A DNA stretch of 64,000 nucleotides. Origin: Phytophthora colocasiae (Eukaryota; Oomycota; Peronosporomycetes; Peronosporales; Peronosporaceae). Every line of letters begins with the position of its first letter. The first letter of the stretch is position 1. This document shows positions 4,427 through 57,930 of the stretch, one piece after another. A program made the position numbers and the translations under genes. The notes under the pieces were generated by a model. It ran no database searches. It was not told the DNA's origin and saw only the letters and a list, made by a program, of their open reading frames with translations. The DNA is taken from contig JAGKQI010000027.1 of assembly GCA_018806915.1 (NCBI GenBank), forward strand, positions 62,001 to 126,000, read 5' to 3'.

Positions 4427-4428
4427 TC

Positions 4429-4440
4429 TGGTAGCACTTG
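4429..4440 (+). other. Primer-binding site of element A
   Basis: tggtagcacttg lies 2 nt after the 5' LTR. It begins with the TGG expected for pairing with a tRNA CCA end. The same TGGTAGCACTT start follows the LTR in B-left and, on the minus strand, in F, so these families probably share a primer tRNA. The tRNA was not identified. Confidence 0.6.
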
Positions 4441-4483
4441 TAGTCAATCCAACTCCTGAGTTGAAGACTGTTTCTCTGTGAGA

Positions 4484-5455: not shown

Positions 5456-5475
5456 ACGCGGGGCGGTCTACTGGG
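5434..5475 (+). promoter_or_regulatory. -1 ribosomal frameshift signal between gag and pol (element A)
   Basis: The slippery heptamer G GGA AAC sits at 5434-5440 in the gag codon phase. A 7-nt spacer (5441-5447) follows. A perfect 10-bp stem, cccagtagac (5448-5457) with gtctactggg (5466-5475), closes an 8-nt loop. The gag stop lies inside the 5' stem arm. A -1 slip enters the frame that reads straight into the protease. Heptamer, spacer and stem match known -1 frameshift elements; that it functions is inferred. Confidence 0.8.
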
Positions 5476-10260: not shown

Positions 10261-11131
10261 CCCGTAGCTGCAATACTTGCAGCGAGCACGTCGGTGCCGT
10301 CGACATGGCATCGAATGCTCAAACTGCAAGTGCAGTAGAGCTACATGCGCCTCGCGCGCGTGTTTCAAGGGTCTATGACCCTTTAACAACACTGGCCTAT
10401 GGCCCGGAGCTTCGCGATCATGAAGCGAAGATGGTTCGTGATGAACAACCGTCTTAATGACGTTCTGTATAAGTGACAAGTGGTGATGGAAACAGATTCT
10501 ATCCGATCACCTGACGCTAGAAGCGATCAATGGGTATGACTATGTCATGAGGCACTGTGGATGCCAGGGATGCCAATGCATTGGACCCCGCATGCTGCAT
10601 AGCAGTAGGAGGTAGGTAAGCTCCTCCTGAGCGACAGCTTAGCTGTCTGGTGCTCGTTGTCGTGTCTACGACGGTGCTGAGCACGTGTATTCACAAGACA
10701 CAGTGTCTGTGACACATAGTGGCGCTTGCGCCTGCTTCAAGGACAACTTGGGCATCAAGCCCTGCACACAGTGCTCATCCGAGGGTCACATTAACTGTGA
10801 AGCGAGTGGGCCCCACTGCTGTGGGGTTCGTGGAACCGTTGGTAGCTTGGAAGGCTCGCCCTGTGGATCACTGATCCAGTAGTATCATAGATACGCCACC
10901 TGTGGCCTTCTTTCCATGCCCGTAGAGCCCCTTGACTCGAGCCAGTAGGCTCCTATGCTTGGTAAGCATTGGGCCCAAGTGTGTACCAAGTGGCATCGCG
11001 TACGGAGGCGTGTAACACGCACGAGAGACAGCGCCGTCCGCGCAAGGCAAGGTGCCGTGGCCATCGGCCGATAATCGCGTCGTGTGTTTACACTTTCCGG
11101 ATACGGTATCCGGAGTCTTGGTGGGGGAGAG
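10261..11131 (+). other. 3' untranslated region and polypurine tract of element A
   Basis: 871 bp between the pol stop and the 3' LTR with no credible gene. It contains several short perfect hairpins, for example around ccccactgctgtgggg and tccggatacggtatccgga. The polypurine tract gtgggggagag (11121-11131) directly abuts the LTR and should prime plus-strand DNA synthesis. Confidence 0.75.
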
Positions 11132-11553
11132 TGTAACGGGGATGTTACACGAATGTTTCTCGTTGGTGTGTGACACACGTGGATACATTTATGTGGGTAC
11201 ATAATGGTGTGTGACACTCATGGATACATTTATGTGGGTACATAATGGTGTGGCACACACGAGTAGATACGTAGATGGCCTCAGAGCCTCACGTTGCATT
11301 TTGATTAGGATTTAGTATGTTAGATACTAAATCCGTTACATTTAGGATTAGGGCAATAAAGTCAATAAAAATCAGTTTGCATTTTACATAGTTAGTGTTA
11401 GTCCTTTGTTATAGGGACACTGACTCTGTGAGTCCCGTATTTAGTGGACTACTTGGTTCTTGTATAGAACCGAAGGCTAGTGCCTTGCAAGCAGGACTCT
11501 ACGAGTCAACTAAACTTCCTCTGTGCCGTGCACACCTACGCAGCCCCGCTGCA
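11132..11553 (+). repeat. 3' LTR of element A
   Basis: 422 bp, apparently identical to 4005-4426. It is followed by gaggt (11554-11558), the second copy of the target-site duplication. Confidence 0.95.
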
Positions 11554-29006: not shown

Positions 29007-29421
29007 TGTAACAGGGATGTTACACGAATGTTTCTCGTTGGTGTGTGACACACGTGGATACATTTATGTGGGTACATAATTGGTGTGTGACACTCATGGA
29101 TACATTTATGTGGGTACATGATGGTGTGGTACACACGAGTAGATACGTGGATGGCCTCAGAGCCTCACGTTGCATTTTGATTAGGATTTAGTATGTTAGA
29201 TACTAAATCCGTTACATTTAGGATTAGGGCAATAAAGTCAATAAAAATCAGTTTGCATTTTACAAAGTTAGTGTTAGTCCTTTATTATAGGGACACTGAC
29301 TCTGTGAGTCCCGTATTTAGTGGACTACTTGGTTCTTGTATAGAACCGAAGGCTAGTGCCAGGACTCTACGAGTCAACTAAACTTCCTCTGTGCCGTGCA
29401 CACCTACGCAGCCCCGCTGCA
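29007..29421 (+). repeat. 5' LTR of element B-left
   Basis: 415 bp, the same type as the A LTR, from tgtaacagggatg to ccccgctgca. It lacks an 8-bp stretch present in A (after gctagtgcc) and has a few substitutions. It is followed by the same primer site, tctggtagcacttg. Confidence 0.93.
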
Positions 29422-29478
29422 TCTGGTAGCACTTGTAGTCAATCCAACTCCTGAGTTGAAGACTGTTTCTCTGTGAGA

Positions 29479-30450
29479 ATGGAGCAAGAAGCATACGCTC
29501 ACTTGACTCCGAGTAAGCAGGACACGCTTAACAAGCTTACGTCCTTGCTGGGCCCTGAAGGTATGGTGCACCTTGCGTCTCAAGGGCCGGAGGCCGTCAA
29601 CGCGTGCCTCGAGGCATTTGCCTCGTACGAGAACGCTCTCGTCGAGCACATTCAGCGGAATGTAAAAGGGGCTACCCCTGCTCCGAGAGCTAAGCCCGTC
29701 ACGCTCAGCGTGAAGACCTTCCACGGAAATGAGGGAGAGAACCTCCTTTTGTGGACCCAAGAGGTCGGAATGGCCATGGGGGCCGCCATGCTCCAGTTGG
29801 AGGGGCAACGCGTGGCGTTTGCCATCTCTAAGCTCGAAGGACGAGCACGAGAATGGGCCTTGACGTCTGGGACGTCGGTGGAAGCGGCCTTCCCCACATG
29901 GGGCGAGCTAAAGGCCAAGCTCACGCAAGTGTTTGCTCCGCCTAATCAGGCGTATCGCGTGCGGTCACGCTTCCTTGCTTGTCGCCAGGGCAAGAAGGAT
30001 CTGGTGGACTATGTCCAAGAGCTGCGCACGCTCATTGCTGGCATGGCTGCCGACCCTCTACCTGAGGTGGTTGCCGTGACCGTCTTCATGGAAGGCTTAC
30101 GAGCTGGCGTGGCCAGGACGGAGACATTCCGTCAGAACCCCCACAGCTTCGAAGATGCTGTCAGCGTGGCATTGAATGCCGAGCACAACTTTAAGTTGTC
30201 GAGGGTCGGTGCTATCAGCACAGGGTCCGGTGGACCCGAGCCCATGGACCTCAGCTATGCTGAAGATGAGGTAGCTGAGCTACGAGCTGCGGTGCAGCGT
30301 ATGAGCACCCGCCGGTGCTATACATGCGGCAGTCCCTCATACTTGAGGCCCAACTGCCCTCTGCGCAAAGAGCGCGCCGGCCAGAATGGCCGCAACCCTG
30401 TCGCGGGTCCCGCTTTGGGTTCTGCCCAGCGAAACGCCGACTCCCAGTAG
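29479..30450 (+). CDS. gag: Gag of element B-left
   Basis: 323-residue Gag like that of element A, from ATG 29479 to TAG 30448-30450. It has the same capsid region ([20 protein letters not shown]) and a CX2CX4HX4C knuckle with substitutions at non-metal positions ([14 protein letters not shown]). Note that the knuckle's His is replaced: the A knuckle reads PTHLRP and this one PSYLRP, so metal binding may be lost. The overlap with pol in the -1 frame is kept, but the slippery heptamer is altered. Confidence 0.88.
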
Positions 30451-30470
30451 ACGCGGGGCGGTCTACTGGG
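30429..30470 (+). promoter_or_regulatory. Altered -1 frameshift signal of element B-left
   Basis: The hairpin cccagtagac/gtctactggg (30443-30452 and 30461-30470) and the 7-nt spacer are kept exactly as in A. The heptamer, however, is GCGAAAC (30429-30435), which breaks the X XXY YYZ rule. If A's site is functional, this copy should frameshift poorly. Confidence 0.7.
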
Positions 30471-33400
30471 GAAGAACTGAGTTCTGCAGTGCGTGAGAGG
30501 CACTGGGGCTCAGCCCCGAAGAGCTCCATGCTCTTTAACACGGAACGTGTGAGCAAGCAGGGCTTGCTGGTCGTCCAGGTGGACGTGAAGGGCTTTGAGA
30601 AGCCGTGGATCGTGTTGATCGATTCGGGGGCGTCTGGCAACTACGTCAGACGCTCCACCGTTGAAGGTAGTCAGCAATATGCTGAGGCGCTTCGAGCGCG
30701 AAGAAGTGACACAGTCACAGTCCGTCTAGCGACGGGCGTCCGTGTGACGGTGGCCAAGGTCCCCATGGACCTGCGGCTGAAGTTCTTGGACTTCCATAGC
30801 GTGGAACGCTGCTTGGTCCTGGACCTGGATTCGAGGAATGACCTCATCCTTGGTATGGCGTGGCTGGAGCGCCACGAGCCATGGATTGATTGGAGGTCGA
30901 AGACCTTAGGTGCTACGCACTACTCTCCCAGTGGAGCTTTGGCGAGTCATGAACCCACCTCGGCTAGGAAGCAGAAGCGCTATTGGCGCGAGCATCGAGC
31001 CGAGTCTGCTATGATGCTGGAAGTCGGTGTGTCCGAGTTAGTGGACAGCACCGAGTGCAAGGAGCACAGTCCTGTTGAGCGCGTAGCGCTGGTTGACAGT
31101 GAGTCAAAGTGTGGGCAAAGCCCACGTCATCCCTGTGGGGCGGCACGTACTCCGTCGAGTGACACCAGTCATGGACCGTCACTGGATGCCGATGGCATCG
31201 GGCCTTCCCAGGCCGTGAACTGTGGGCGGTACGTACTCCGCCGAGCGATGCTGGTCGGGGACCAAGTCGATCGCTGAGTGTCTCTGACACTGGGCCTGAA
31301 GGGGCCGAAACCTGTGCGGCGGCACGTACTCCGTCGAGTGGACGTTCGTCGGCTAGGCGATGACGTCGTAAGGCCCTATGGGCGAGACGCTCCGCGTCTG
31401 AGTCGTCCGTGACGTCAAGTGTCAACGCACAGGAGGTCTGTGGGCAGCTATACACACTGGTCGATGGAGTGGACGGCGGTGCCGAAGGCAGCGTCCGGCT
31501 GGACAGACTGCCGAGCGTCGACAAACTCCTTGAGTTAGAGGAGATGTCGTTCGCCGACTTTGGCGATGCCTTGAAGGCTGGCGAACTCGCCGAGGTGGTC
31601 ATCGTTAGACCTGAAGAGGAGTTAAACTCATCGTCCCTCGTTGACGAGTCCGTCGTGGCCGAAGTCAAGAAGGCGTTGAACGCCAGGAGTAAATCGGAGA
31701 TCCTCAAGAATCCCTCGGATCCCTTCTACTCCTTGCTGAAGGAATATGGAGACGTTGTCTCGAAGGAACCACCGAGTGGCCTGCCTCCTGACCGAGGCGT
31801 TCGTCACGAGATCGACTTAGTTCCCGGAACTAAATACTGCGTAACCCGTCAGTGGCCTGTTCCCAAAGAGCAATGCGACGTCATTGACGCCTTCTTCCGT
31901 GCGAAGCACGCTGCGGTCTTGTGCGCGAGAGCACGTCTCCGCACTCCGCACCAACGTTCTGTGTCAGAAAGCCGAATGGCAAGTGGCGTATCGTTCACGC
32001 TTTCAATAAGCTTAACGCTGCCACGATTCCGGCACAGACACCGATTCCTAGGAAGGATGTTCTTCAGAACAACATGGTGGGTTGCACCATGTACAGTGCG
32101 CTCGACTTAGTCGATGGCTACTATCAGCTGCTCATGCGAGCCAGTGATATTCCGCTTACAGCGGTGAGCACCCCGAGCGGTATGCTCTGGGAGTGGTTCG
32201 TCGTGCCCCAAGGGCTGTCGAACGCGCCTGCAACGTTCAATCGTCTAGTGACGGAGTTGTTTAGGCCCCTACGGGCGTTCGCACAGACGTACTTTGACGA
32301 CGTGTTCGTCCACAGTCGTGCTGAGCACGGAAAGACTGATGTCGAGGTGCACGTGGAACACGTGAGAGCTGTGCTCGAGTGCATGCGCACGAACAAACTG
32401 TACGCCAACGCAGACAAGTGCGTCTTTGGCGCGGAAGAAATCCCCTTCCTAGGGTGCTTCATTGGGAAGCATGGCCTTCGTGCTGATCCAGCAAAGGTCA
32501 AGGCCATTGTGGACTGGCCGATTCCCTTGAACCAGAAGGACTTGCGTAAGTGGCTGGGCTTGTCCAACTACATGCACAAGTACAGCGAGAACTACGCTGA
32601 GCCAACGCTGAGTTGGCTCGGCCACTGTCGGATCTCCTTAAGAAGGATGCCGAATGGGTATGGCGTGCTGAGCACGAGAGTGCGTTCACTCGTATCAAGG
32701 ATAGCCTGCTTCAGGCACCGATACTGGCGTTGCCAGACCCCGATCGTCCGTTCATCGTCGTCTGTGACGCCTCGGACTTTGCCATCGGCAGTGCTTTGCT
32801 ACAAGCGGACGCCGACGGGCGCGAACGCGTCATTGCGTTTGAGTCTCGGCAGCTCAAGGCTGCTGAGAAGAACTATCCAGTTCATGACAAGGAGCTACTT
32901 GCGATGAAGTACGCTCTCATCAAATTCAGGGTTCACCTGCTCGGCTCCAAGCCGTTTGTGATCTACACGAATCATGCGTCACTACGCACAGCGACGCAGT
33001 CGCCTCACCTCTCGCAGAGGATGGCCCGATGGCTCTCCTTCTTTGCGGAGTATAACTTCGAGGTGAAGTACAAGCTTGGCAGGCAGAACGTCCTCGCTGA
33101 CGCGTTATCACGTCGCTCGGACTATGAGTTATCTCATGTCACCTCGGTGACGTCGTCCGTGACGGACATGGTTCGAGCAGCGTACGCTCAGGACGACTCT
33201 TGTGTCGCGCTGCTTCAAGCTCTAGGGAGCGATGAGTTTAAGGACTCAAAGGTGACTCTGTCACGACGCCTAAAGGCGAGACTCCAACGCTATAGCCTGG
33301 AAGGCGGTCTGCTGTACTACAGCACGGGTCAGAATGACCCACCACGTGTGGTAGTTCCTCACGATGAGGTTCTGAAGTACCGTATCCTCTATGAGGCCCA

Positions 33401-34067
33401 CGACACGCCCACAAGCGGCCACCTCGGTCGCGAGAAGACCTATGGCTCGGTGAGCTCCACCAACTGGTGGCCGAAAATGTACAAGTGGGTCAGCACATAT
33501 GTGCACACGCGCGAGACGTGTCAGCGGGTTAAACCCTCACCGCACGCGGCAGCGCCTTTGGAGAGCTTGCCTGTACCCTCTGGGTGTTGGCAATCCATAA
33601 GTATGGACTTTGTGTTTGGCCTGCCGAAGGATACGGCAGGCAACACGGGCGTTGTAGTCTTTGTTGACCGTCTGAGCAAGATGGCTCACCTAGCGGCTGT
33701 GCCGGACACCGTCGATGGCGCTGGTACAGCGACGATCTTTATCGATCGGGTCTTCCGCCAGCATGGGCTGCCAGAGACCATTGTCTCGGATCGAGACCCC
33801 CGTTTCACGGGTCACTTCTGGACGTCCGTCTTTAAGGTGCTTGGCACTCGACTGGACATGTCCACGGCGGACCATCCGCAGACCGACGGTCAGACTGAAC
33901 GCGTGAACCGTGTCCTGGAGGACATCCTCCGCAGCGTATGCGCCGACACGCCGAAGCGCTGGAGCGCTATGCTCCCTCTCGTCGTGTTCGCACTGAACAA
34001 TGCGGTACATGCCTCGACAGGCTTCACCCCGTTCTACGTGAACGGCCTTGCGCATCCGCGCGTCCGA
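30435..34067 (+). pseudogene. pol: Pol of element B-left (broken)
   Basis: Protease (VLIDSGASGNYVRR near 30617), linker with three 93-bp repeat starts, RT with YFDDVFVHS near 32291, RNase H, integrase zinc-binding region and DDE core. Lesions against A: a frame change near 31270, 1-nt loss near 31915, an 11-bp duplication at about 32600 (between RT and RNase H), and a junction at 34067 right after NGLAHPRV. The integrase zinc-binding pair reads HTRETC instead of HTCETC, so the first Cys is lost. The RNase H block has YTNHASL where A has YTDHASL, so a likely catalytic Asp is gone. Unlike A, it lacks the 40-bp RT-RNase H deletion. Confidence 0.88.
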
Positions 34068-34564
34068 GATCACTTTCAGAGAGGCGTGCTGCTGGCGGGC
34101 TGGCAACACGGGCAGAGTGTGCCAAAGGGAACGGCACATGCGATCCCCGCTTCCATGGACAGATCATGGAGGCGTTCACACTTACCACGAGTGGTGTAAG
34201 TGTAGTAGCGATCGCGAGCTGCAGCAACGCACTCGCGATACGCCAGCAGGGTGTTTGATCCCTGCTAGCGAAGAAGAAGTCTTCTTCGCTTGCTTCTCCT
34301 TGTGGAGAGCATGGTAGACGGTGACAGAGAGCTTCTCTGTCGAACCGCTGGAAGCAGCAGTGCTAGTAGGCACTGCTGATGTTGTTGTTCCTGCTGCAGA
34401 AGCAGCAGGAGAGGCTTGCGTGTCCGCAGAAGCGGACGGAGACGTGGGCGTTGGCGAGTCCATTGCGAAATGAACTCGGATTTCTCTCGGGAACTTGGCG
34501 GTCTTGTCAAGTTCTGTTGATTGACGTATCAAGACCGATACGTCGAATCTTAACGGGGGGATGG
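34068..34564 (+). other. Inverted 3' untranslated region and polypurine tract of F
   Basis: Matches the minus-strand 3' region of element G (54335-53802) but reads here on the plus strand. It ends with the purine run ggggggatgg (34555-34564) just before the LTR start. It holds many hairpins, such as gcgaagaag/cttcttcgc and gacgtatc/gatacgtc. No gene is seen. Confidence 0.75.
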
Positions 34565-34935
34565 TGTAACGGGGTTACACGTACAAGTGGTTGTACCACT
34601 TGTAACTCTAACAGTTAGGATAACTGTTAGAGGTTGCAATGGACCTCAGACCTTGGTGCGTGCTGTACACACCAAGGGATACATGGGCGAACCACATTTA
34701 TTGGATGGTTCGTGTGCATTTGTGCATATTATTGGTAGAAAGTAACGGATTTCTACCAATCACTGAGCAGAGTTTCTGCCAACCACACGTTGGCAGACCC
34801 TTTAGAAATAGATAACAAACAGTTTTAGGAGGTCCATAATTGGCTTATGCCAAATTCAATAACAGTTCTCATTTTACGGTATTTTGCAGTTTAATTTAGT
34901 TATATTTGATTTAATTATACTTATTTAAATAAGTA
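34565..34935 (+). repeat. Inverted, truncated 3' LTR of F
   Basis: 371 bp starting tgtaacggggttacac and ending in the palindrome at 34918-34935. It is the reverse complement of the outer part of the 41231-41687 LTR. The last 91 bp of the LTR (beyond the palindrome) are missing here. Confidence 0.85.
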
Positions 34936-35023
34936 CCCGATCACATCAAAGAGCTTCGTGGTCGTCTCGAGCCACGCGGAGCTTCGAGTGCTGTGGCTGA
35001 CCGCAGCACTCCTCGTGCAGGGC

Positions 35024-38000
35024 TTACCCCTGCAAGTTACGGTGGGCTTCGTACGCCATCACCATTTCCGGAACGTCCTCCATCAGGACGTTCCGCGGCT
35101 CCCATGTATCTCGATGGGGAGGAAATCCTCTCCACCGAATACGAAAACGAACCCCTTGAGAGTTCGTTCTCTTATGAGCCACGATCCGCTCCACAATCCA
35201 GCGGATCGCTCCACGCGCGTCGCGCAACGGCGGCGGAGGGGGTGGGAACACTCCCTCCGCATGGTCAACGCTATGACCATGACGATCGTGCCCTGCACGA
35301 TCGAGTTGCTGCGCTGGAGCAGACACAGAGCGCTGAGATAGCTGCTCTGAAGCAGGAGGTTCGTGTCCTCCGTGCTGAGGTCTGCGAGGCAGCTCAGACT
35401 GCCTCGAACCTCTCGTCCGGTCTTGGGACGAGAGTGAACCGGTTGATCGACCGTGTCGACGGTCTCGAGAAGGCCTTCCAGGCCTCTCGCACTCCTCAGT
35501 CGGACTACCAGCCATAGGTAGCCCGTGCTACACGTACGGCTTCAACCGCCCGACGTAGAAGGTCGGGTGGAGCCTCATGCTGGACGGTATGTCCAGCCGG
35601 TACGCGTTACCATGCCGTTCAAGTACTTTGAACGGCCCAATGAATCTTGGAGCAAGCTTGCTTGCTCCAAAGTCAGACACTGCATGTTTAGGCAGGTTTT
35701 GTGTAGCTAACAAAACCAATGAACCCAATTTGAATTCATTTATGTTGCCCCTACCAACATTATCTGCGTTCAGCTTCTGTCGATCGACAAAAGCTGCGAT
35801 AGCATCCTGGACAAACCGTATGACGGCTTGTCTTCGCTGGACAAAGTCTAGCGCACCCGAGCTGAATCCTTTCAGCTTGTCGCCCTTGTCAGCAGCAGGC
35901 CCTGCCCGCTCGCTATCATCTCTCATGTCTGTGCCCGGCACAGACATCGCGCGCTCGTTCCTGCTAGACCGAGACGTCGCACGCGTCACCGCAGCTGATA
36001 GTGTGCTGCTATCAGTTGCATTCTGCGGTTGTTCGGACGCAACCGTAGATCCTCCCCCCCTTAAGGAGGAAACTACCCCGCCGAGCATGCTCGGCAATCG
36101 TGGATGTCTCATGGCGTTCACGTAGAACGGTGTATGCCCTGTCGAGGCATGCACCGAGTTGTTGATGGCAAACTCTGCCATCGGCAAGCACTCGCTCCAA
36201 TGCGGGAACGAGTGAGCGTAGCTCATCAGCGTGTCACCCAGTACGCGGTTGACACGTTCGGTCTGTCCGTCCGTCTGCGGATGATCCGCAGTCGACATTG
36301 ATAATTGTGAGCCAAGAAGTGTAAACACTTCTTGCCAGAACCGCGCTGTGAAGCGTGGATCACGGTCCGACACAATGTCGAGCGGCATGCCATGGTGTTT
36401 GAACACCATGTCAACAAACAGTCGCGCAGTCTGCGCGGCTGTAACAGTAGCCGGGACGGCAGCAAGATGAACCATCTTGCTGAATCTGTCCACAAAGACA
36501 ACGATGCCCGTCCTCCGCTTGCTGTCAGGCGGAAGACCGAAGACAAAGTCCATGGACATGGACTGCCAACACTCCGACGGAGTCGGTAGTGATTGAAGAG
36601 GAGCCTGCGAGAACTGCGCAGGCTTCACGCGTTGACAAACCTCGCAAGCACGTACGTACTTGCGCACCCACTTGTACTGGTGGTACCAGTAGAAGTCACG
36701 CGTGAGAAGAGTGTACGTCTTCTCACGACCCGGATGCCCTGCCGTGGGGGCATCGTGATACTCGAACATGATCCTCAACCGGAGGTTGTGATCATTCGGA
36801 ACGACAATGCGATCAGCATTGTCGTCTACTGCACTGTACAACAGTAGTCTTTCGTGTACACGATAGCGGTGTACATGAGCTCGAAGATGAGGGGTTAGCT
36901 TCCGACGTGCCACGTCGGAAGATGCTGCGAGGAACTCCAGCAGCCCCTTCGCGTCTGCATCCCTTGCATACGCGTTCTTCACGTCGTCAATCAACGTTGA
37001 CGACGGCACGCCAACTGCGTTGGCGTCGACCGTCTCCGCGTAGTCAGGTCGACGCGATAACGCGTCGGCCACTACATTGAGTCTTCCGGGTTTGTACTCC
37101 ACCCGGAAGTTGTACTCCGCGAAGAAGGACAACCATCTCGCCATACGTTGCGAGATGTGCGGCGACTTAATCGCCGTACGCAATGATGCGTGGTCTGTAT
37201 AGACCACGAATGGTCTACTCCCAAGTAGATACACTCGGAACTTTGCGAGTGCATACTTCATGGCAAGGAGCTCCTTGTCATGTACGGAATAGTTACGCTC
37301 AGCTGGCTTCAGCTGACGCGATTGATAGTAGACTACACGATCACGCCCTTCGTGATCGTGTTGCATCAATGCACATCCGATTGCGAAGTCGGATGCATCG
37401 CACACTACGTGGAATGGACGATCTTGGTCCGCCACGGCCAAGATCGGCGCTTCAGTCAAGCCCTGCTTGACTGCACCGAATGCATCCTCGCACTCGGTCG
37501 TCCAAATCCACTCAGCTTCTTTCTTGAGAAGCTGTGACAACGGGCGAATCTTGCCCGCATAGTTCTCCACGTACTTGCACAAGTACGTGGCAAATAAGGA
37601 ACTGCCTCAGTTCCTTCACATTGGATGGCGTGGGCCATTCATTGATCACTCTGACCTTCTCTGGGTCAGGGCGCACGCCGTCTTTCCCCACGAGACACCC
37701 CAGCACGGGTATCTCGCTCGCCCCGAAGATACACTTCTTCAGGTTCGCATAGAGCTTATGTTTCCTCATAAGCTCTAGCAGCTTCCGGAGATGCACCTTG
37801 TGCATCTCAATGTCCGTCTTCCCGTTCACAGCCCGGCTGTGGACGAACACGTCGTCGAAGTAGCTCGGTGCGAAGTCGCGCACCGAGCGCAATAGATGTG
37901 TCACGCATCTATTGAACGTCGCAGGGGCGTTCTTAAGCCCCTGTGGCATGACGAGCCACTCCCAAAGCATACCGCTTGGAGTGTTTACCGCAGTGAGAGG

Positions 38001-39925
38001 GATGTCCCTCTCACGCATGAGGATCTGATAGAATCCATCACGCAGATCTAGAGCACTGAAGATAGTGCTCAAGGCCATCGAATCGATGATGACATCTTTT
38101 CGCGGTATCGGCGTCTGCGCCGGTATCGTCGCATCGTTCAGCTTGTTATACGCATGAACGATGCGCCAGCCGCCCTGTGGTTTCTTAACACAGAACGTTG
38201 GAGCACTGTGCGGGGACTTTGACTCCCGCACTTGACCTGCAAGACGACGACTTTCAAAGAAGTCGTCGATCGCTTGCACTTGTTCACGCGGCAGTGGCCA
38301 CTGCCGTGTAACACAGTACTTCGTGCCCGGCACGAGATCAATCTCGTGCTGTACGCCCTTGTCCTTCGGAAGCTCCGAAGGAATCTCGTCCGGGAGTACA
38401 TCCTTGTACTCCCGCAGAACTTCGTAGTAGGGACTCGACCTCAACGAGTCCCAACTCTGCTCTTCGAAGCGCTGTTTCTTAGTCTTCGCACTGAGGGGTC
38501 ATCGCCCTCAGTGATGCCATCGACGACGAGCTGCTTCAGCTCCTCGGCTTCGCGATCCACTCTCTCGATATCCGAGAGAATGCAAATTTGTTCGATGCGT
38601 CCATCGTACAAGTCCCGCGCGAAGCGCTTCCAACTCATCGTTGGAAGTGCGGTCAACGCCGACGCACTCGTCGGCGGATTCTCCAACCGCATCCTCTGGT
38701 ACTGTAACCCAGTACCAGTACGTGTCAAGACGTTCAACGTCTCGACACTCGGTGTCTGCACTGCAGATACACCCGTCTCAGTCCCGGACTGAGACTCGCG
38801 CAACTCCTGAGCTTGCGCCGCGAAGATCTACCATGGAGCCCGGCTCCAGGTGCTCCCACGTCCAAGGCATCGCACCTTGGACGGGACGTTATCGCAATCG
38901 TCAGCGGATTCCTTCCGCTGACTCGCACTATCAAGCCCGGCTTGAGTGCCGCTCATCGCGTGCAGCGCTGCTGCACGTGAGCACGCAGGTTGTTCGGGTG
39001 CTGGGCGTTTGCAACCGCCAGCACCTCCTGCCGCGCAGTCGGTTCCCTGAACCGCTGCGCCTCCATCCGCCCCCGGAGCGGATGAAGCAACCGCATCGTC
39101 GAGTCCCGGAGTCGACGTGCTCTCGCTAGCTTCCTGCGCTAGCGAGTGTTCGCTTGTACACGTATCGTCAGCTCCCAGAGCTGACGCACGATCGCTAGTT
39201 CCCGGAACTAGCAGCGAAAGTTCGCCTCTACACGCATCATCAGCTCCCGGAGCTGATGCACGATCGCTAGTTCCCAGAACTAGCAGCGACGCGCCAGTGG
39301 CGTCAGCTCCCAGAGCTGACGCACGCCTTTCGGTTCCCCGAATTTTATTTATTTCGTCAACTCCCAGAGTTGACGCGACGTCGTCGGCGCGACCCTTGGA
39401 GGCTTGAAGTACCTCCAAGGATACCGGTAATACCCCTTCTCTCAGGTGAATTGCATTCACCTGACCATCACTCATGTGACAAACATCATTCAGATGTTTA
39501 TGCGTCAGGTGATTCACATTCACCTGACCATCACTCATGTGACCGCGACCCTTCGGCTCAGATTTCTGAGTCGACACACATTTTCTCACAACGACTCCCG
39601 CAGTCGTTTATGGTCGCCGGCGGCGATCGGAGGCAGCGGCGGATGCTGCTGCCTCAACTGAGGAATCACATGCACCGCCTGGTGCATGTGCAGCACTGAC
39701 AGGGCCATCGCTCTCTGTCGCGCATGCGTTGTTGAAGCGTACGAGCGTACGCTTCTCCCAGTTGATCACCGGGTCATGCCGTACAAGCCACGGCATGCCT
39801 AATACCAAGTCGAACTTATCGTCTAGATCCAAGACGATAAGGTCTTCTACAAACGTCCTTCGTTTGTAAGAGAAGCGCACACGGACCACGCGCTTCTCAC
39901 TCCTTACGGTGGCACCTGTTGCCAA
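35024..39925 (-). pseudogene. pol: Pol of element F: protease end, RT, RNase H, integrase, chromodomain
   Basis: From 39925 downward: C-terminal half of the protease (FDLVLGMPWLVRHDP), a variable linker (39589-38450), RT (38444-37512) with SYFDDVFVHS (YFDD at 37862-37851), RNase H and integrase in one long frame 37582-35528 (VVCDASDFAIGCAL; CEVCQRVKPAQ; MDFVFGLPP; SDRDPRFTARFW; QTDGQTERVNR; LPKHAVSDFGASKLAPRFIGPFKV), and a chromodomain (IVERIVAHKRTNSQGVRFRIRW) about 35290-35120. Frame changes occur near 39910, in the linker, near 38445, near 37570 and before the chromodomain. Each is small, so some may be sequencing errors. Synonymous positions appear to be shaped by hairpins. Confidence 0.88.
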
Positions 39926-41181
39926 CCGCCCTCCAACACGCCGCGAGGCGTGTCGGTCTCTTCGAAGTCAAGCCTTCGAAGACTTCCCTGTCGAACAAAG
40001 TTGTTCGACGCGCCCGAGTCCACTAGGGCACGAAGAGAGTTCACTCTCTTCGACATCACGTTCAGGATGACAAGGCCTGGCTTGTCATCTTGCATCTCGC
40101 AGCGAGAAACCTTCTCGCTGGGGGCAGCAGCCTTCAGCGTCGCGTGTCCGAGTTCGACACGCGAGACTGCATTACCAGTAGGACGCCCCGCGCCTACTGG
40201 TTCCTTGGAGTTTTTTGAACGCCCGCCCGCTGTGCACTTGCGTGCATAGTGACCGATGTTACCACACAGGTAACATCGAACCTTGACGTTCTTACGCTGC
40301 TGTTGACCAGCAGTCGTAGCACTCGAGAGGTCCATAGGTTCCGGACCTCCCGTCTTCGCAACAGGACGCGCCGGCTTCGGCGCGTTCGCATGGAGTTTAG
40401 CTTGACGCCGGCTAAACTCCTCTTGTATCGCAAGGCTGATCGCCTCTTCGAGAGTATTCGGATACTCTCGAAAGAGATATGTTTTGATGGGACCATCTCT
40501 TAGTCCCTTCATGAACGTGACGACCTTGGTCGCCTCGTCGATCGGGTTGGCCACTATGTTCGATACCAAGTATCGAGCACGCTGGGCAAAGGTGTGAACA
40601 TCATCCTTGCCCTGTTGCAGATCGAAAAACTCCGCTCTCGATCCGAACTCGTTCTTCGGAGGCTCAAACGCAACCTTGAGTTCCTCCTTGAACTCCTCGT
40701 ACGTGCTGAAGCACGTAGGATCCGAGAGTCGGTGCCCATAGGCCCAACTCCTCGCACGTCCGCCAAGACATGACATGGCGAACGCGACCTTCGACATCGG
40801 ATCGACGATACGTCGAGCCGCAACGGCTGTATCAAGTTCGACAAGCCAACAAAGGAGGGTCTCGTCCTCCGTCCCCGTGTAGGTACTCATGTGGAGTGTC
40901 AACGACTCCACGCGTGGCTTCGGAGAAGCCACCGAGGCAGCAACATCCCGTTGCTCCTTAACAATGTACCCCAGAGCAACACCATGTTGCTCTGTCGGCG
41001 ATAGCGTACGAAGCATCGTCGCTACCGCCGCCTCTCCAATGACTTGCGAAAGTCTTTGGAGAGCTTCCCACTCTGGGTCCGACAGGTGGGCACAGTCCGT
41101 GCGCGTCACGGACATGTGTGGGGTCCCAGTGGATCCCTGATCCATTGGGGAGTTCTCGACCCCGCGTTCGTATGACTCCAT
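39904..41181 (-). CDS. gag: Gag-protease N-terminal part of element F
   Basis: 425 residues from ATG 41181. Capsid region (TGTEDETLLCWLVELDTAV, then FSTYEEFKEELKVAFEPPKN), then a zinc knuckle CYLCGNIGHYARKC (CX2CX4HX4C), and in the same frame the start of the aspartic protease (LRALVDSGASNNFVRQGS). The frame ends early at 39904, where a small indel moves the rest of the protease to another frame (39925 downward). Unlike A, B and C, no gag stop separates gag from protease, so this lineage makes a fused precursor. Confidence 0.85.
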   Translation of the reverse strand: MESYERGVENSPMDQGSTGTPHMSVTRTDCAHLSDPEWEALQRLSQVIGEAAVATMLRTLSPTEQHGVALGYIVKEQRDVAASVASPKPRVESLTLHMSTYTGTEDETLLCWLVELDTAVAARRIVDPMSKVAFAMSCLGGRARSWAYGHRLSDPTCFSTYEEFKEELKVAFEPPKNEFGSRAEFFDLQQGKDDVHTFAQRARYLVSNIVANPIDEATKVVTFMKGLRDGPIKTYLFREYPNTLEEAISLAIQEEFSRRQAKLHANAPKPARPVAKTGGPEPMDLSSATTAGQQQRKNVKVRCYLCGNIGHYARKCTAGGRSKNSKEPVGAGRPTGNAVSRVELGHATLKAAAPSEKVSRCEMQDDKPGLVILNVMSKRVNSLRALVDSGASNNFVRQGSLRRLDFEETDTPRGVLEGGWQQVPP

Positions 41182-41230
41182 ACGAACGAACTGCAGTCGG
41201 TCGTGGGACGGACTACAAAGTGCTACCAGG

Positions 41231-41687
41231 TGTAATGGGTCTACCTAGACCTATTAGATGGCGTACACGTGCGCTTACGTGTATGAGGAAGCGTGCAATT
41301 AGAATAGACTTAATTTAGGTATACTTATTTAAATAAGTATAATTAAATCAAATATAACTAAATTAAACTGCAAAATACCGTAAAATGAGAACTGTTATTG
41401 AATTTGGCATAAGCCAATTATGAACCTTCTAAAACTGTTTGTTATCTATTTCTAAAGGGTCTGCCAACCACGTTGGCAGAAACTCTGCTCAGTGATTGGG
41501 AGAAATCCGTTACTTTCTACAAATAATATGCACAAATGCACACGAACCATCCAATAATGTGGTTCGCCCATGTATCCTTTGGTGTGTACAGCACACCAAG
41601 TCTGAGGTCCATTTCCAACCTCTAACAGTTATCATAACTGTTATAGATACAAATGTTACAACCACTTGTACGTGTAACCCCGTTACA
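41231..41687 (-). repeat. 5' LTR of element F
   Basis: 457 bp on the minus strand, from tgtaacggggttacacgtac (at 41687) to ggtagacccattaca (at 41231). It is followed on the minus strand by cc and then tggtagcacttt (41228-41217), the same primer-site start as A. It contains the palindrome at 41322-41339 and many hairpins, for example ctgccaac/gttggcag. Confidence 0.88.
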
Positions 41688-42600
41688 TTCTGCTGTGCGT
41701 AAACAAGTCGATGACTTCCTCTCGGTGAGATTGAGCGTATTACGCCGTGTGCGTGACGCGATGGCTGATAGCCAAGACGTTCAGAAGGAACAAGCTGATG
41801 CAAAAGGTAGAGGCAATGTGTGGGTCGGTGACCAAGTTTTATTAAACGCTAAGAACCTACCTACACATGCAGTGTCGAGTGTCTTTAAGACGAAATTGCG
41901 TCCGCGCTTCATCGGACCATTTACGGTCGTGGCCAAGAAGGGCCTGGCATACACGCTTGACTTGCCAAAGCGGATGCGAACACACCCTGTGTTCTACGTC
42001 GGCTTGCTTAAGCCATATCGGGACCCCGCGGGGGTGAGCGCGGAGGCGCTGGCGCCGACGACACGCGCCCAGGCTGCGTCATCTGCAGCAGCAACGTCAC
42101 CTGACCCCGCAGCTCAGCGAGCTGAAGCTCCTTCTGGTGCAGGCGAGCAGTCAGGGACTGAGGACCTTCGAGCCAAGCCACCCGGCTTTCAATCTCCTCT
42201 ATGTCACGAGCGAAACGGGCATGCGAATGCCAAAAGCTCTCCATGTTCCCCTGAAGAGACTGAGTCGGACTCTGGAGAGTACCGATCGAGCGATCGAGTT
42301 GATACCAGGCGCGCTGCGACAAATAGCGCTCATCACACTCATCGAATCGGCCTCCTCCGCCGTTGCTCGGTAAGCAGGGGACTCCCCATTACCACGTGGA
42401 GCGCCTGATGGCGCGGCGTCGCCACCGTAGTCAAAACTAGTATCTGGTGAAGTGGCGTGGGTATCCTCATTCCCAAAACTCGTGGGAGTTTGAAGGGCCC
42501 CTGAGGCAGGACTGCCCTGACGTCGTGGACACTTTTGATCGCGAAGATCGGAGGCGCCCGAAGGGCTCAAGGTCGACCACTCGGTCGACACCCGCTTCTC
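41688..42600 (+). pseudogene. pol: Pol C-terminus with chromodomain, B-right
   Basis: Resumes an A-type pol at AVRKQVDDFLSVRLSVLRRVRDAMADSQ, runs through LLNAKNLPTHAVSSVFKTKLRPRFIGPF and THPVFYVGLLKPYRDP, then a linker unlike A's, and a chromodomain (YHVERLMARRRHRSQN, then YLVKWRGYPHSQNSWEF) at 42390-42560. A TAG interrupts the chromodomain after SQN, and the linker joins it with a frame change near 42375. About 90 bp present in A (9203-9295 region) are missing at the F junction. The linker is open on both strands. Confidence 0.82.
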
Positions 42601-43617
42601 ACCACTAGTGTGGGAAGCTGACGGGCTAGCAGCCGAGCTCAGGATCTGGTCCGTGGCTGGCACAGCCAGTGAGTCTCCTTCGGAGACCGGAGGAGCGTCC
42701 TGCGAAGCAGAGATAGTGGCCTGAGAGACGGGAGCCACTGCCGTCGTGTGACGAGGAAAGCGGCCGGGCCGCACGCGTAGCTTCGCGTATTGGAAGAGTA
42801 GACCTCGGGCGAGGCGGACGTCCACCTCGGAGCAGCTCTCCATGAGCCGATCGAATGACGCGAGCTTCCGTGAAGCTTCGGCCCAAGTGGCCACATGGAC
42901 CATATAGTCCCTGGACGTCTCTCCGGTCTGGAGGAGCAGCGGATACGTCCTCATCTGAGGCACAGACTCGCGCCGTCGTTGCTTATCCCAGCGTTGTCGA
43001 TACTCGACGAGTGTGCATACCTGCGGGGTCAGGAAACGCTCATGGAGCCCTTGCCGCTGCTGAGTCTCAGCCACGGTGCGAGGTGCAGCGCCTATGGCGT
43101 ATCCGTGCAGGTTTGCGCCATTAACTGTTTCACCTGCTCGGCAGGGTCACGAGACTCGAAGCCGTAGTCGCGTCGCGACGAAGTCCCCACGATGTCCCGT
43201 TGGACCGGTCGACGTGACTCTGGAGCACCGCTCATAGAGGTCTCCTGTGCCTCATCCAGAGGGTTGGTGATCGCGTCTTCGACCCCTGAGCGACTCTGGC
43301 TCATCGCGAGCAGGAAGTGGTGGTGCGTTGCGTAACGCGTTGAGCACGAGGCTCGAAGGTCCCTCCGGGAATGGATTGGGCTGATGCAGCTGCCGAGGAA
43401 GCGTGTACCGACGCGGATCACGTGGAGAGCGCAGAGTCGTCCGAGAGCTCGCAGGAGCAGGAGACGCAGGGGCATCGCCCTGTTCGGACTCCTCATAGTC
43501 CACTTCGACCTCGCCGTCCTCAGCAGGAGAGCGACGTGGGTCGCGCGTCGGCGACGCTGTCGAGTTCTCGAACGGCGAGCCACCGCTACCACTTGTAGTT
43601 GGGTTGGCCTTGAACAT
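42008..43617 (-). other. Antisense open frames in the 3' part of B-right
   Basis: On the strand opposite pol, long frames encode gene-like protein. From an ATG at 43617: MFKANPTTSGSGGSPFENST, a Pro/Arg/Asp-rich region, then after a frame change MSQSRSGVEDAITNPLDEAQ, then 43074-42199 (RFLTPQVCTLVEYRQRWDKQ; GETSRDYMVHVATWAEASRK; MESCSEVDVRLARGLLFQYA), and finally a coiled-coil-like end (QRAWYQLDRSIGTLQ; FARDIEEIESRVAWLEG; ELQLAELRGQVTLLLQM). Heptad spacing and lack of low complexity argue for past coding use. Two or more frameshifts are needed, and 42390-42560 is antisense to the chromodomain. It could be a captured host gene or an antisense accessory gene of the element. No family is recognised. 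Confidence 0.4.
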
Positions 43618-43915
43618 CGCTCCGTAGTGAAGGCGAGACGCCGCGAAATACTCCGAAACGGAGAGCGTGAGAGGAGCCGGGGGCTCAGTCAGGAAAGCCT
43701 GGAGACTCCGCCTCAGAGGCGCTGAGGCGGAGACGCCAGGACCTGGACACCGAGGGCGGTAGGCTCGCTGGGGCGAATGGGAGAATGTGCTCGTTGAGCC
43801 AGCGCGCACGCTCGTTGAGAGATTTCTTTTATCGAAAAGTTGCCGGTGACAGGCCTTGACAAGGCAGTTATACCTGCAGTTGTAGATACTGCGTATCCAC
43901 GGTTTGGTGGGAGGG

Positions 43916-44317
43916 TGTAACGGGGTTACACGGCGCTGCGCGCCCTGGCTACAGTTGGTGTGGTATACACCGGCCAGGTCACACGTCACAGATCTGTGTA
44001 TGACACATCGTATCTCACACGTCACATGTACCCATGTGAGGGGGGGTTGGCTGAGAGCCACACATTGCATTTTGATTAGGATTTAGTATGCTAGATACTA
44101 AATCCATCACATTTAGGACTAGTGCAATAAAAGTCAATATAATTCAGTTTGCATTTTACATAGTTAGTGTTAGTTCCTTTATTATATGGACACTGACTCT
44201 GTGAGTCCCGTATTTAGTGGACTACTTGGTTCTTGTATAAAACCGAAGGCTAGTGCCTTGCAAGCAGAACTCTACGAGTCAACTAAACTTCCTCTGTGCC
44301 TACGCAGCCCCGCTGCA
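43916..44317 (+). repeat. 3' LTR of B-right
   Basis: 402 bp, tgtaacggggttacacgg to ccccgctgca, preceded by the purine-rich ggtttggtgggaggg. The 3' two thirds match the A LTR, but the first 130 bp differ strongly from both A and B-left. Copia J begins immediately after it. Confidence 0.85.
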
Positions 44318-53321: not shown

Positions 53322-53801
53322 TGTAATAGGTCTACCTAGACCTATTAGGTGGCGTACACGCGCGCTTAGGTATATGAGGAAGCGTGCAATTAGAATAGAC
53401 TTAATTTAAGTATACTTATTTAAATAAGTATAATTAAATCAAATATAACTAAATTAAACTGCAAAATACCGTAAAATGAGAACTGTTATTGAATTTGGCA
53501 CCAACGTTTCTCAATTATGGACCTCCTAAAACTGTTTGTTATCTATTTCTAAAGGGTCTGCCAACGTGTGGTTGGCATAGAAACTCTGTTTCCAGTGGGA
53601 TTGGTAGAAATCCGTTACTTTCTACCAATAATACACAAATGCACACGAACCATCCAATAATGTGTGGTTCGCCCATGCTTAATCCTTTGGTGTGTACAGC
53701 ACACCAAGGTCTGAGGCTCCATTTCCAACTCCTCTAACAAAGTTATCCTAACTGTTAGAGTTACAAGTGGTACAACCATCTTGTATGTGTAACCCCGTTA
53801 C
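53322..53801 (-). repeat. 3' LTR of element G
   Basis: 480 bp on the minus strand, ending ggtagacctattaca at 53322. Its start near 53801 reads gtaacggggttacac and has lost the first bases seen in F. It includes the palindrome tacttatttaaataagta. It is homologous to 41231-41687 in full length. Confidence 0.8.
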
Positions 53802-54459
53802 CCACCCATCCCCTGTTAAGATTCGACGTATCGGTCTTGATACGTCAATCAACAGAACTTGACAAGACCGCCCAAGTTCCCGAGAGAAATCCGGAGTTCA
53901 TTTCTGCAATGGACTCGCCAACGCCCACGTCTCTCCGTCCGCTTCTGCGGACGCTTGTAAAGCACCTCTCCTGCTGCTTCTGCAGCAGGGCAACAACAAC
54001 CTCAGCAGTGCCTGCTAGCACCTGCGAAGCTTCCAGCAGTTCGACAGAGAAGCTCTCTGTCACCGTCTACCATGCTCTCCATTAAGCGATAGGAAGCGAA
54101 GCTGAAGAAGACTTCTTCTTCGCTGGCAGGAGATCAAACACCCTGCTGGCGTATCGCTGACGCGATTGCTGCAACTCGCGATCGCTACTACACTTACACC
54201 ACTCCGTGGTAGAAGTGTGAACGCCTCCATGATCTGCTGTCCATGGGAAGCGGGGATCGCATGTGCCGTTCCGCTTTGGCAACACCCTTCTGCCCGTGTT
54301 GCCCACCCCTTGGCAAGCACGTCTCACCGAAAGTGATCTCCCAAAGGGGTACACGGGATTGTCCGTGGTACCTGATCGCATCAAGGAGCTTCGTGGTCGT
54401 ATTGTGCCGCGAAGCTCCGAGTGCTGCATGGCCTGACCGCAGCACTCCTCGTGCAGGGA

Positions 54460-56265
54460 TTACCCCTGCGAAGTTATGAGTGGGCTTCGTACGCCCTCAC
54501 CATTTTCCGGAACGTCCTCCATCAGGACGCGTTCGCGGCGGCCATCCCATGTATCTCGGGATGGGGAGGAAATCCTCTCCAACGAATACGAAAACAATGA
54601 ACCCCTTGAGAGTTCGTTTCTCTTGCCATGAGCCACGATCCGCTCCACAATCCAGCGGATCGCTCCACGCGCGTTCGCGCAACGGCGGCGGAGAGGGGTG
54701 GAACATCTCCTCCCGCATGGTCAGCGCTATGACCATGACGATCGTGCCCTGCACGATCGAGTTGCTGCGCTGGAGCAGACACAGAGCGCTGGAGATAAGC
54801 TGCTCTGAAGCAGGGAGGGTTCCGTGTCACTCCCGTGCTGAGGTCTGGCCGAGGCAGCTCAGATCACTGCCTCGGAACCTCTCGGTCCGGTCTTGGGACG
54901 AGAGTGAACCGGTTGATCGACCGTGTCGACGGTCTCGAGAAGGCCTTCCAGGCCTCTCGCACTCCCTCTGCAGTCCGGACTACCAGCCTTGTAGGTAGTC
55001 CGGTGCTGCCCTTACGTACGGCTTCAACCGCCCCGACGTAGGAAATGTCGGGTGGAGCCTCATGCTGGACGGTATGGTCCAGCCGGTACGGCAGTTACCA
55101 TGCCGTTCAAGTACTTTGAACGGCCCCAAGCTGATCTTGGAGCAAGCTTGCTTTGCTCCAAAGTCAGACACTGCATTGTTTAGGCAGGTTTTGTTGTAGC
55201 TAACCTGAAACTAATGAACCCACTTTGAATTCATTTATATGTGCCCCTACCAACATTATCGCGTTCTAAAGCTTCTGTCGATCGACAGAAGCTGCGATAG
55301 CATCCTGGACAAACCGTATGATGACGCGGCTTGTCTTCGCTGGACAAAGTCTAGCGCGGCACCCGAGCTGAATCCATTCAGCTTGTCGCTCCTTAATCAG
55401 CAGCAGGCCCCTGCCCTTGCTCGCTATCATCTCTCTATGCCATCTTAACTGCGCCGGCACAGCCATCAGCGCGCTCGTTCCTGCTCGAACGAGACGTCGC
55501 ACGCGTCACCGCAGCTGATAGTGTGTGCTGCTATCAGTTTGCATTCTGCGGTTGTTCGGACACGCAACCGCAGATCCTCCCCCACTTAAGGAGGAAGCTA
55601 CCCCGCCGAGCATGCTCGGCAATCGTGGATGTCTCATGGCGTTCACGTAGGGCGGTGTATGCCCTGTCGAGGCATGCACCGAGTTGATGATGGCGAAACT
55701 CTGCCATCGGCAAGCACGCTCGCTCCAATGCGGGAACGAGTGAGCGTAGCTCTTCAACGTGTCACCCAATGCACACGGTTGACACGTTCCCGGTCTATCC
55801 GTCCGTCATGCGGATGATCCGCAGTCGACATTGATAACTGTGAACCAAGAAGTATAAACACTTCTTGCCAGAACATCTCGCGCTTTGTGAAGCGTGGATC
55901 ACGGTCCGACACAATGTCGAGCGGCATGCCATGGTGTTTGAACACCATGTCAGCAAACAGTCGCACGCAGTCTGCGCTGGCTGTAACAATGTAGGACGGC
56001 AGCAAGATGAACCATCTTGCTGAATCTATCCATACAAAGACAACGATGCCCGTCCTCCGCTTGCTGTCAGGCGGAAGACCGAAGACAAAGGTCCATGGAC
56101 ATGGACTGCCAACTTGCTACCTGACGTGAGTCGGTAGTGATTGAAGAGGAGCCTGCGAGAACTGCGCAGGCTTCACGCGTTGACAAACCTCGCAAGCACG
56201 TACGTACTTGCGCACCCACTTGTACTGGTGGTGCCAGTAGAAGTCACGCGTGAGAAAGAGTGTGT
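54460..56265 (-). pseudogene. pol: Pol 3' part of element G: integrase and chromodomain
   Basis: From 56265 downward: integrase zinc-binding region (DFYWHHQYKWVRKYVRACEVCQ), core blocks (VFKHHGMPLDIVSDRDPRF; QLSMSTADHP), NSVHASTGHTPPYVN, GPFKVLERHG, and chromodomain remains near 54730-54520. The frame changes every 50-100 nt because of 1-3 nt insertions relative to F. This is far denser damage than elsewhere in the window, so either strong decay or poor local consensus. Several insertions fall in pairs on both sides of hairpin stems. Confidence 0.8.
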
Positions 56266-57100: not shown

Positions 57101-57227
57101 TCTGATTTATGGCTATCCAGTTTCTCATCCTGTACCCTCATCTTTCCCATCGCAAATCTCTATCTTAGATCATGCTGGCTCTCTTCCAACCTGCTTCACC
57201 ACGTTGATGTCATAAACCTTGAGGATC

Positions 57228-57770: not shown

Positions 57771-57930
57771 GGACTGCCGGATCCGGTACACTCTGGGACT
57801 GTGGGATCCGAACTTTAAGTCAGCCAGGCCAAAGTGGATCCTAACTTAGGGTCCGCTCCTAGAGTAGAGTACCAGTTCCAGGGACCTGCCCCTTATCGTA
57901 GCACCACTGTCGCACGCGTCACCCATCATC

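Follow-up and report, generated by a model that had tools for sequence, protein, structure and literature searches.

Genome-scale ordered structure, an excess of folding along the whole coding RNA, is known from RNA viruses. Paired sequence can also arise by template switching, which changes the arms of inverted repeats in the quasipalindrome mutagenesis of E. coli (PMC7202029) and alters imperfect inverted repeats in yeast coding genes, the arms being homogenised within coding sequence (PMC8604942). For template-switch hairpins, the accessible part of a further study reports perfect Watson-Crick stems, a preference for stable loops and paired changes, and derives that intrastrand switching leaves a pair asymmetry with an excess of T-A and G-C (PMC8794818). 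Here, a stretch of 64,000 nucleotides (nt) from the oomycete Phytophthora colocasiae (positions 62,001-126,000 of JAGKQI010000027.1; parent assembly 92.5 Mb), called the window in the following, was analysed. It contains F, a Ty3/gypsy retrotransposon with long terminal repeats (LTRs), and two copies, A1 and A2, of the related element A, and both families are filled with short perfect hairpins. We suggest that these related oomycete Ty3/gypsy elements have been rewritten by templated fold-back copying during the copying of the element, a reading that is held tentatively and placed slightly below an even chance.

For the window-wide count, a hairpin was defined as a perfect stem of at least 7 bp with a loop of 3-12 nt. 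The window holds 217 such stems, of which 131 start in 34000-41999 (about 16 per kb) and 30 lie in 53000-55999, within the older partial F copy, leaving 56 for the remaining 53 kb (about 1 per kb). A first-pass annotation had described F as saturated with perfect hairpins in coding sequence, untranslated region (UTR) and LTR. This saturation is confirmed as real and strong, with 130 stems in 7.6 kb against a mean of 4.15 in dinucleotide shuffles (maximum 8 in 20 shuffles). Its examples were recovered where they were looked up, some with slightly different lengths (36313-36334, 9 bp; 36391-36410, 8 bp; 36460-36482, 36701-36727, 36801-36825, 36899-36921, 35647-35670 and 37567-37590, each 10 bp; 35069-35095, 11 bp; 38430-38452 and 39194-39212, each 8 bp; and an LTR stem of 12 bp at 34606-34632), and the 15 stems of at least 7 bp that it gave for 35995-36921 became 14 on recounting.

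The excess withstands shuffles that preserve protein and codons, the comparison proposed in that annotation: the four F open reading frames (ORFs) carry 15-20 stems per kb, about 1 per kb being found in the shuffles (Table 1; maxima in 40 shuffles 6, 3, 5 and 3 for the RNase H/integrase, reverse transcriptase, intermediate and gag frames). Stem density is alike in coding sequence (94 in 5.26 kb), in 3' UTR plus LTR (31 in 1.62 kb) and in the LTR (7 in 0.46 kb). Furthermore, the excess recurs in all 20 fetched loci around F copies (L009-L028), which hold 120-168 stems per 9.5-9.9 kb, flanks included. The non-F sequence of the fetched loci holds only 66 stems in 50.7 kb, even with hairpin-rich stretches of two further families, G and K, so the excess stops at the ends of F. 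Two of four further samples, L042 and L043, proved to be F copies. The PHD-finger ORF, the sole presumed host gene examined, has 1 stem against 1.20 in shuffles.

The stems of F have a characteristic length. Among 146 hairpins of one copy, 35, 29, 48, 24, 8 and 2 have stems of 7, 8, 9, 10, 11 and 12 bp, respectively, with the peak at 9 bp; the longest stem met, in one copy, has 14 bp. Stems of 9 bp number 24 against 0.2 in codon-preserving shuffles. The excess is confined to stems of about 7-11 bp and fades at loops of about 13-16 nt, more distant inverted repeats in F being at background. Since mean stem energy changes from -8.5 kcal/mol at 7 bp to -15.3 kcal/mol at 11 bp, it is length and not stability that is held constant. 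Longer stems are somewhat less GC-rich, a weak but significant correlation (rho -0.24, p=0.003). An energy threshold as the ruler was rejected as the main rule, because rho is only -0.24 and the energy still rises with length. By our reading, stems longer than the mode are about as frequent as chance extension yields. The triloop NGG accounts for 12 of the 26 triloops of the window copy.

In element A, the length is different. The first-pass annotation saw a weaker form of the pattern there, which holds where stems of 7 bp or more are counted, their number exceeding background only a little (9 against 3.6, maximum 7 of 20 shuffles), and fails overall, as A is saturated at 5 bp. For 5-bp stems with a loop of 3 nt, A1 (4005-10260) has 49 against 2.6 in dinucleotide shuffles, and A2 is similarly enriched (Table 1); 4-bp stems with this loop are also raised (39 against 15.1 in A1, 32 against 11.9 in A2). 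In five slightly overlapping A1 ORFs, 5-bp stems with loops of 3-6 nt number 22, 18, 17, 18 and 32 against 3.9, 3.7, 3.9, 4.0 and 7.2 in 60 codon-preserving shuffles, together 107 against 22.7, and at 7 bp or more these ORFs are near background. This length of 5 bp is also why 21-nt windows of A fold better than their own codon shuffles despite few 7-bp stems. A disabling of short guide RNAs by self-folding was dropped as the main idea, as F has no advantage over A in the folding of 21-nt windows. GNA triloops and C-G closing pairs are stable motifs in DNA mini-hairpins. Both are preferred among the 62 loop-3 hairpins of A, of which 13 have a GNA triloop (p=1e-4) and 38 a C-G closing pair.

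Other sequences differ again. In the gypsy element C (three ORFs), the Copia element H, the PHD-finger ORF and the gypsy fragment L041, no count of stems of at least 5 bp rises above the codon-shuffle range. The 6-bp stems of one C ORF just equal its upper end (4 against 1.3, shuffle maximum 4), and C is somewhat above dinucleotide shuffles at 5 bp with loops of 5-6 nt (18 against 9.3). For Copia H, the absence of an excess noted at first pass stands: stems are even fewer than in codon shuffles (4 bp, 17 against 30.9; 5 bp, 3 against 8.7). At 4 bp, both the Copia ORF (50699-53293) and the PHD-finger ORF (1579-3042; 9 against 16.7) lie below the codon-shuffle mean. Family G (L044) is 62% identical to F in its DNA across 885 aligned columns. 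Its 900 bp carry 8 stems of 7 bp or more, 7 of them with loops no longer than 12 nt, and most lie at positions other than those of the F stems. Family K (L012:9116-9900), a further hairpin-rich gypsy family with the LTR start TGTAACGGGGTTACA, nested in an F LTR, has 12 stems in 790 bp. These samples are small; a length of 7 bp is shared by 10 of 19 listed G and K stems and is tentatively assigned to both families as the modal one. The older G-family copy L045 has lost stems by point changes and is uninformative. Stem length thus varies by family within one genome, and C, H, L041 and the PHD-finger ORF lack the excess, from which it follows that the pattern follows the element. A mild excess of 4-6 bp stems over dinucleotide shuffles was also seen in window positions 57000-64000, which include tandem repeats (57255-57752, 61479-61890).

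The pairing rules of A1 are near-strictly Watson-Crick. Over four bins of falling energy, Watson-Crick 5-bp stems number 61, 76, 43 and 15 against 9.8, 10.5, 4.4 and 1.7, a six- to tenfold enrichment in each bin down to -2 to -0.5 kcal/mol. In the same bins, stems with one interior G.U number 5, 13, 17 and 13 against 5.0, 13.3, 13.7 and 7.5, and on the antisense strand 2, 8, 15 and 11 against 3.3, 9.9, 13.9 and 6.2; in a further count, G.U and A.C are both near chance (50 against 41.0 and 38 against 40.0). Exact complementarity and not pairing energy is therefore favoured. Furthermore, A1 shows a pair asymmetry, with 209 T-A against 139 A-T and, away from the closing pair, 231 G-C against 176 C-G.

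In F, paired differences have been found between hairpins. Between gag and reverse transcriptase, paired changes distinguish paralogous 9-bp hairpins that carry NGG triloops, for example CGTCAGCTC/GAGCTGACG, CATCAGCTC/GAGCTGATG, CGTCGACTC/GAGTCGACG and CATCCGCTC/GAGCGGATG. Since only hairpins with 8 or more of their 9 pairs entered this listing, it demonstrates the existence of paired variants and not the frequency with which pairing fails. The stems of F therefore persist and covary over longer times.

Taken together, the evidence favours arms that were copied from one another, as in template-switch mutagenesis, because in A complementarity is independent of energy and stable loops are preferred, because lengths have a family ceiling and loops at least 3 nt, and because the pattern is confined to certain elements and equally dense in the LTR, UTR and genes of F. 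Of the three causes offered at first pass, the template-switch correction of quasi-palindromes thus fits best. While the element is copied, most likely in reverse transcription, the growing DNA strand would fold back over a loop of at least 3 nt, would use its own earlier arm as template for a few nucleotides and would then return to the first template, leaving a second arm exactly complementary to the earlier one. The copied patch would have a family-specific upper limit, about 5 bp in A, 9 in F and perhaps 7 in G and K. As ceilings differ among families that share a host, it is probably the enzyme of the element itself that determines this limit. Events harmful to the proteins would be removed by purifying selection, and the survivors would fill coding sequence, UTR and LTR over many rounds. 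We infer from this pattern the fold-back step, reverse transcriptase as its agent and that no function of the hairpins is needed. More generally, some retrotransposon reverse transcriptases may edit their own element with a built-in fold-back patch of 5, 7 or 9 nt and so leave, over evolutionary time, a string of perfect hairpins of that length, in which a biochemical constant of the enzyme would be preserved by the genome; this generalisation we regard as possible, though somewhat less likely than not.

Several observations weigh against fold-back copying. No mechanism is known to us by which a patch would be set so sharply, at almost exactly 5 or 9 bp. In F, 9-bp windows with one interior G.U exceed shuffles on the sense strand (30 against 0.9) and the antisense strand (60 against 1.1), and all mismatch classes are enriched (A.C 60, G.U 30, A.A/U.U 19, A.G 13, G.G/C.C 8, C.U 8), all counted in overlapping windows; hence, the energy test does not separate the causes in F. 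Counted once per site in the majority state, one-mismatch stems comprise 39 A.C, 19 G.U, 14 A.G, 13 C.U, 18 A.A/U.U and 9 G.G/C.C, so that on the sense strand A.C outnumbers G.U (39:19, p=0.012). As A.C corresponds to G.T on the minus strand, wobble may be tolerated antisense, a hint that the hairpins matter on the minus strand; selection on an antisense molecule would likewise produce this tolerance. The G-C bias of A1 is gone once the closing pair is counted (277:269), and F lacks an asymmetry of the A1 type (T-A 229, A-T 224; G-C 298, C-G 265). The mismatch windows, pair asymmetry and energy results in F lower our confidence slightly.

Variation among copies adds to these points. Shared stem changes in F are mostly one-sided (68, comprising 25 G.U, 22 A.C and 21 other), two-sided ones being 4 Watson-Crick and 4 otherwise; correction is therefore not fast now, and a rapid repair at every cycle is a poor fit. 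The 5' and 3' arms of F show no bias (shared 28:40, p=0.18; private 71:88, p=0.20), an asymmetry that switching on both strands would hide. Among shared alternative haplotypes, irrespective of the direction of change, 11 of 98 carry at least two arm changes. Agreement of the F protein with homologues reveals no overwritten arm: for 115 distant homologues, it is 0.845 and 0.824 in the arms and 0.839 outside. Overwriting of an arm that is visible in the protein was thus rejected, as the arms do not differ. With four near relatives, residues in the arms agree more often than those outside (0.84 and 0.86 against 0.78). The first-pass suggestion that stems are built at synonymous positions is borne out in that stem residues agree with homologues as often as others do, but not in its strict form. 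The 96 F stems examined fall into codon registers as 35, 34 and 27, the last being the register where pairs between codon positions 1 and 2 make up two thirds. Potential stem sites are realised more often in the hard register (46% against 12-16%), an excess compatible with either cause, and synonymous-only building was rejected.

Selection could in principle act on the stems, and variants in 18 F copies bear on this, with stems (at least 8 bp) defined in any copy. At fourfold sites, transmitted variants occupy 10 of 330 stem sites, 34 of 594 elsewhere and 18 of 86 in loops, and private variants 27 of 330, 56 of 594 and 13 in loops (stems against elsewhere, p=0.55). Protection of stems among transmitted fourfold variants is not significant (p=0.076), and the loop excess, about 4 times other sites, is significant (p=1.6e-5). 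Early counts (7/338 in stems, 36/526 elsewhere, 15/86 in loops; shared-to-single p=0.0025) were discarded and are not relied on, as a majority-state definition of stems hides variants that break the stem in most copies and so overstated the protection. Neither the LTR plus 3' UTR of F (20/607 against 40/912, p=0.35) nor the comparison of A1 with the older copy A2 (89/1680 in stems, 145/2929 at other sites; p=0.63) shows stem protection, and loops diverge more than other sites between A1 and A2 (49/574, p=0.001). Changed pairs between A1 and A2 are one-sided in 73 cases, two-sided and Watson-Crick in both copies in 8, five of which sit in the repeated stretch 6138-6548, and two-sided otherwise in 3. 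Between gag and reverse transcriptase (L028:6160-6860 and equivalents), the F copies form two haplogroups with one apparent recombinant. With one copy of each haplogroup compared over two gag-RT stretches, 9 of 242 stem sites differ against 33 of 378 others (p=0.02), which selection would also give.

The alternative that survives best is selection for RNA structure of the element, ordered genome-wide and aiding packaging, shielding from small-RNA silencing or tuning translation. F folds far beyond codon shuffles on both strands (sense -43.2 against -31.5, antisense -42.7 against -28.9 kcal/mol per 100 nt), its stems vary slightly less among transmitted though equally among private variants, and paired changes and one-G.U stems above shuffles exist. 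In addition, the accessible part of PMC3522703 reports small RNAs of P. infestans, sense and antisense, on two abundant Gypsy-type elements. This alternative would predict G.U stems of equal energy, of which A has no clear excess; in F, where stems with one G.U are above shuffles to no greater degree than those of other mismatch classes, the comparison does not separate the causes, and G.U is no commoner than A.C beside stems (18 each among outer mismatches of the window copy), at internal positions or in the majority state. Moreover, length and not energy is constant and differs among families in one host, the stems of A improve long-window folding by just 2.7-4.7 kcal/mol per 100 nt (F, 11.7), and the absent protection in the LTR plus 3' UTR and between A1 and A2 does not fit. 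Selection for RNA structure, also named at first pass, is therefore unsupported in A and possible in F, and appears unlikely as the overall cause.

Selection on single-stranded DNA or on both RNA strands, for example minus-strand cDNA, or transcripts of both strands whose annealing has to be avoided, would demand strict Watson-Crick pairing. It would account for G.U and A.C near chance in A1 and for the A.C surplus of F, which is G.T or G.U on the minus strand, and many F copies carry long antisense open frames. Such frames of about 490-565 amino acids occur at the 3' end of many copies (e.g. L012, L016, L021, L024, L025), but those of one copy have no Pfam domain above the cut-off, and hairpin symmetry may keep them open without function. 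As it gives no reason for family-specific stem lengths and the stems are only weakly protected from change, we consider this cause quite unlikely.

Packaging-signal models of RNA viruses rest on selection for many scattered binding sites. Similarly, an element protein (Gag, nucleocapsid or integrase) could bind hairpins of a family-specific length, which would explain this length, the spread of hairpins across the whole element and the recurrent NGG triloops of F. No loop motif is common to all hairpins, though, loops range from 3 to about 13 nt, and the near-strict Watson-Crick rule in A speaks against it, as do hairpin positions, which mostly differ between F and G and coincide between F and A in 12 cases against about 6.4 expected; such binding sites are very unlikely to be the cause. 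Precursor hairpins of small RNAs (miRNA or long hairpin) have stems of about 20 bp or more, a length that is not reached here (5-12 bp in the counted copies, 14 bp at most in one copy). As to a possible link with small-RNA production, the third cause offered at first pass, the small RNAs of Phytophthora, 21 and 25 nt in the accessible part of PMC3804510, are far longer than these stems. Chance, low complexity or an assembly artefact is hardly credible given the shuffle controls, the 19 other F loci (L010-L028) and the sparse non-F sequence, and has found no support.

F itself is a Ty3/gypsy element with chromodomain by its domain set, gypsy order and direct LTRs. The window copy (Table 1) contains gag with CCHC, and another copy with an open frame encodes protease, reverse transcriptase, RNase H, integrase, a Tf2-type SH3 domain and a chromodomain; the frame between gag and reverse transcriptase in the window copy has no Pfam match. 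An LTR pair was found in 13 of 18 oriented copies and a single LTR match in 5. The pairs are 95.9-100% identical (at least 97% in 12 of 13), and the insertions therefore look recent. Among the matches listed (120 of 4227), the best species-named relatives of F pol belong to Phytophthora and Globisporangium, the nearest proteins by BLASTP being those of P. ramorum and P. cinnamomi (about 82%), and no relatives were confirmed in viral contigs or prokaryote genome contigs. The 3' end of the window copy is inverted compared to the canonical order in the 19 other fetched copies L010-L028, with a short AT palindrome at the junction near 34920-34940; the inverted part holds 7 stems in 371 bp (34565-34935) and 8 in 497 bp (34068-34564). 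Locus L009 (C22:973001-982500), 99.2% identical to window positions 33501-42120 including flanks, represents either an allele of the window copy on another contig or a duplicate of it. A2, a gypsy element older than F, hosts it, and its right part has 7 loop-3 5-bp stems against 1.8 in 42200-44000. The LTRs of A1 (4005-4426 and 11132-11553) are identical over 422 bp.

Table 1. Features of the window, with counts of perfect stems of at least 7 bp unless stated otherwise; means of shuffles follow "vs".
Feature	Position	Strand	Remark
Element F, Ty3/gypsy LTR retrotransposon copy	34066..41687	-	Hairpin-saturated; nested in A2
F 3' untranslated part, purine tract and LTR part	34066..34935	+	Inverted; hairpin-rich
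F RNase H/integrase ORF	35528..37582	-	33 stems vs 2.02 (codon shuffles)
F reverse transcriptase ORF (RVT_1)	37512..38444	-	16 stems vs 0.93 (codon shuffles)
F ORF between gag and reverse transcriptase	38828..39589	-	15 stems vs 1.15 (codon shuffles)
Repeated 8-10 bp hairpins with NGG triloop in F	39166..39375	-	Paralogues show paired differences
F gag ORF (Retrotrans_gag, Ty3_capsid, zf-CCHC)	39904..41181	-	19 stems vs 1.05 (codon shuffles)
F 5' LTR region	41231..41687	-	LTR begins TG at 41687; hairpin-rich
Older partial F copy	53322..56263	-	About 90% identity; 32 stems in 2.9 kb vs 1.25 (shuffles)
Element A1, Ty3/gypsy with chromodomain	4005..11553	+	4005-10260 saturated with 5-bp hairpins
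Element A2, left part	29007..34065	+	Interrupted by F, resumes at 41691; loop-3 5-bp stems 37 vs 3.6 (dinucleotide shuffles)
Element A2, right part, beyond F insertion	41691..44300	+	Weaker 5-bp excess

If the copying reading is true, an entire coding element can receive a nucleotide-level pattern from reverse transcription, one that is strong enough to shape codon choice, and the hairpins can serve as a family-specific ruler. This would be relevant to the origin of perfect RNA hairpins, to mutation spectra in retroelements and to arguments that take conserved structure as a sign of function. Should selection be responsible instead, the ordered structure of these elements would be exceptionally dense, to our knowledge denser than any other, and the missing G.U stems in A would require explanation.

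In the literature searched, judged by title and start of abstract and with most subscription papers outside this coverage, no account of hairpin-saturated retrotransposons or of a family-specific stem length was found. Compared to genome-scale ordered RNA structure, the elements are alike in folding below codon-preserving shuffles, strongly in F and mildly in A, but their stems are short, perfect and limited in length, and in A without an excess of G.U. The oomycete Ty3/gypsy elements with chromodomain of PMC5348765 share host group and element type, although the main text of that paper is without the words hairpin, stem-loop, palindrom and inverted repeat. In contrast to the single sites in the accessible parts of the yeast and E. 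coli studies (PMC8604942, PMC7202029), 15-20 stems per kb are found here across an element. The closest likeness is to the template-switch hairpins of PMC8794818, whose asymmetry of G-C and U-A is matched in A1 and not in F. In the part of that study accessible to us, the events lie in RNA genes under DNA replication, whereas here whole retrotransposons are saturated at a stem length of their own family, and the likely stage is reverse transcription.

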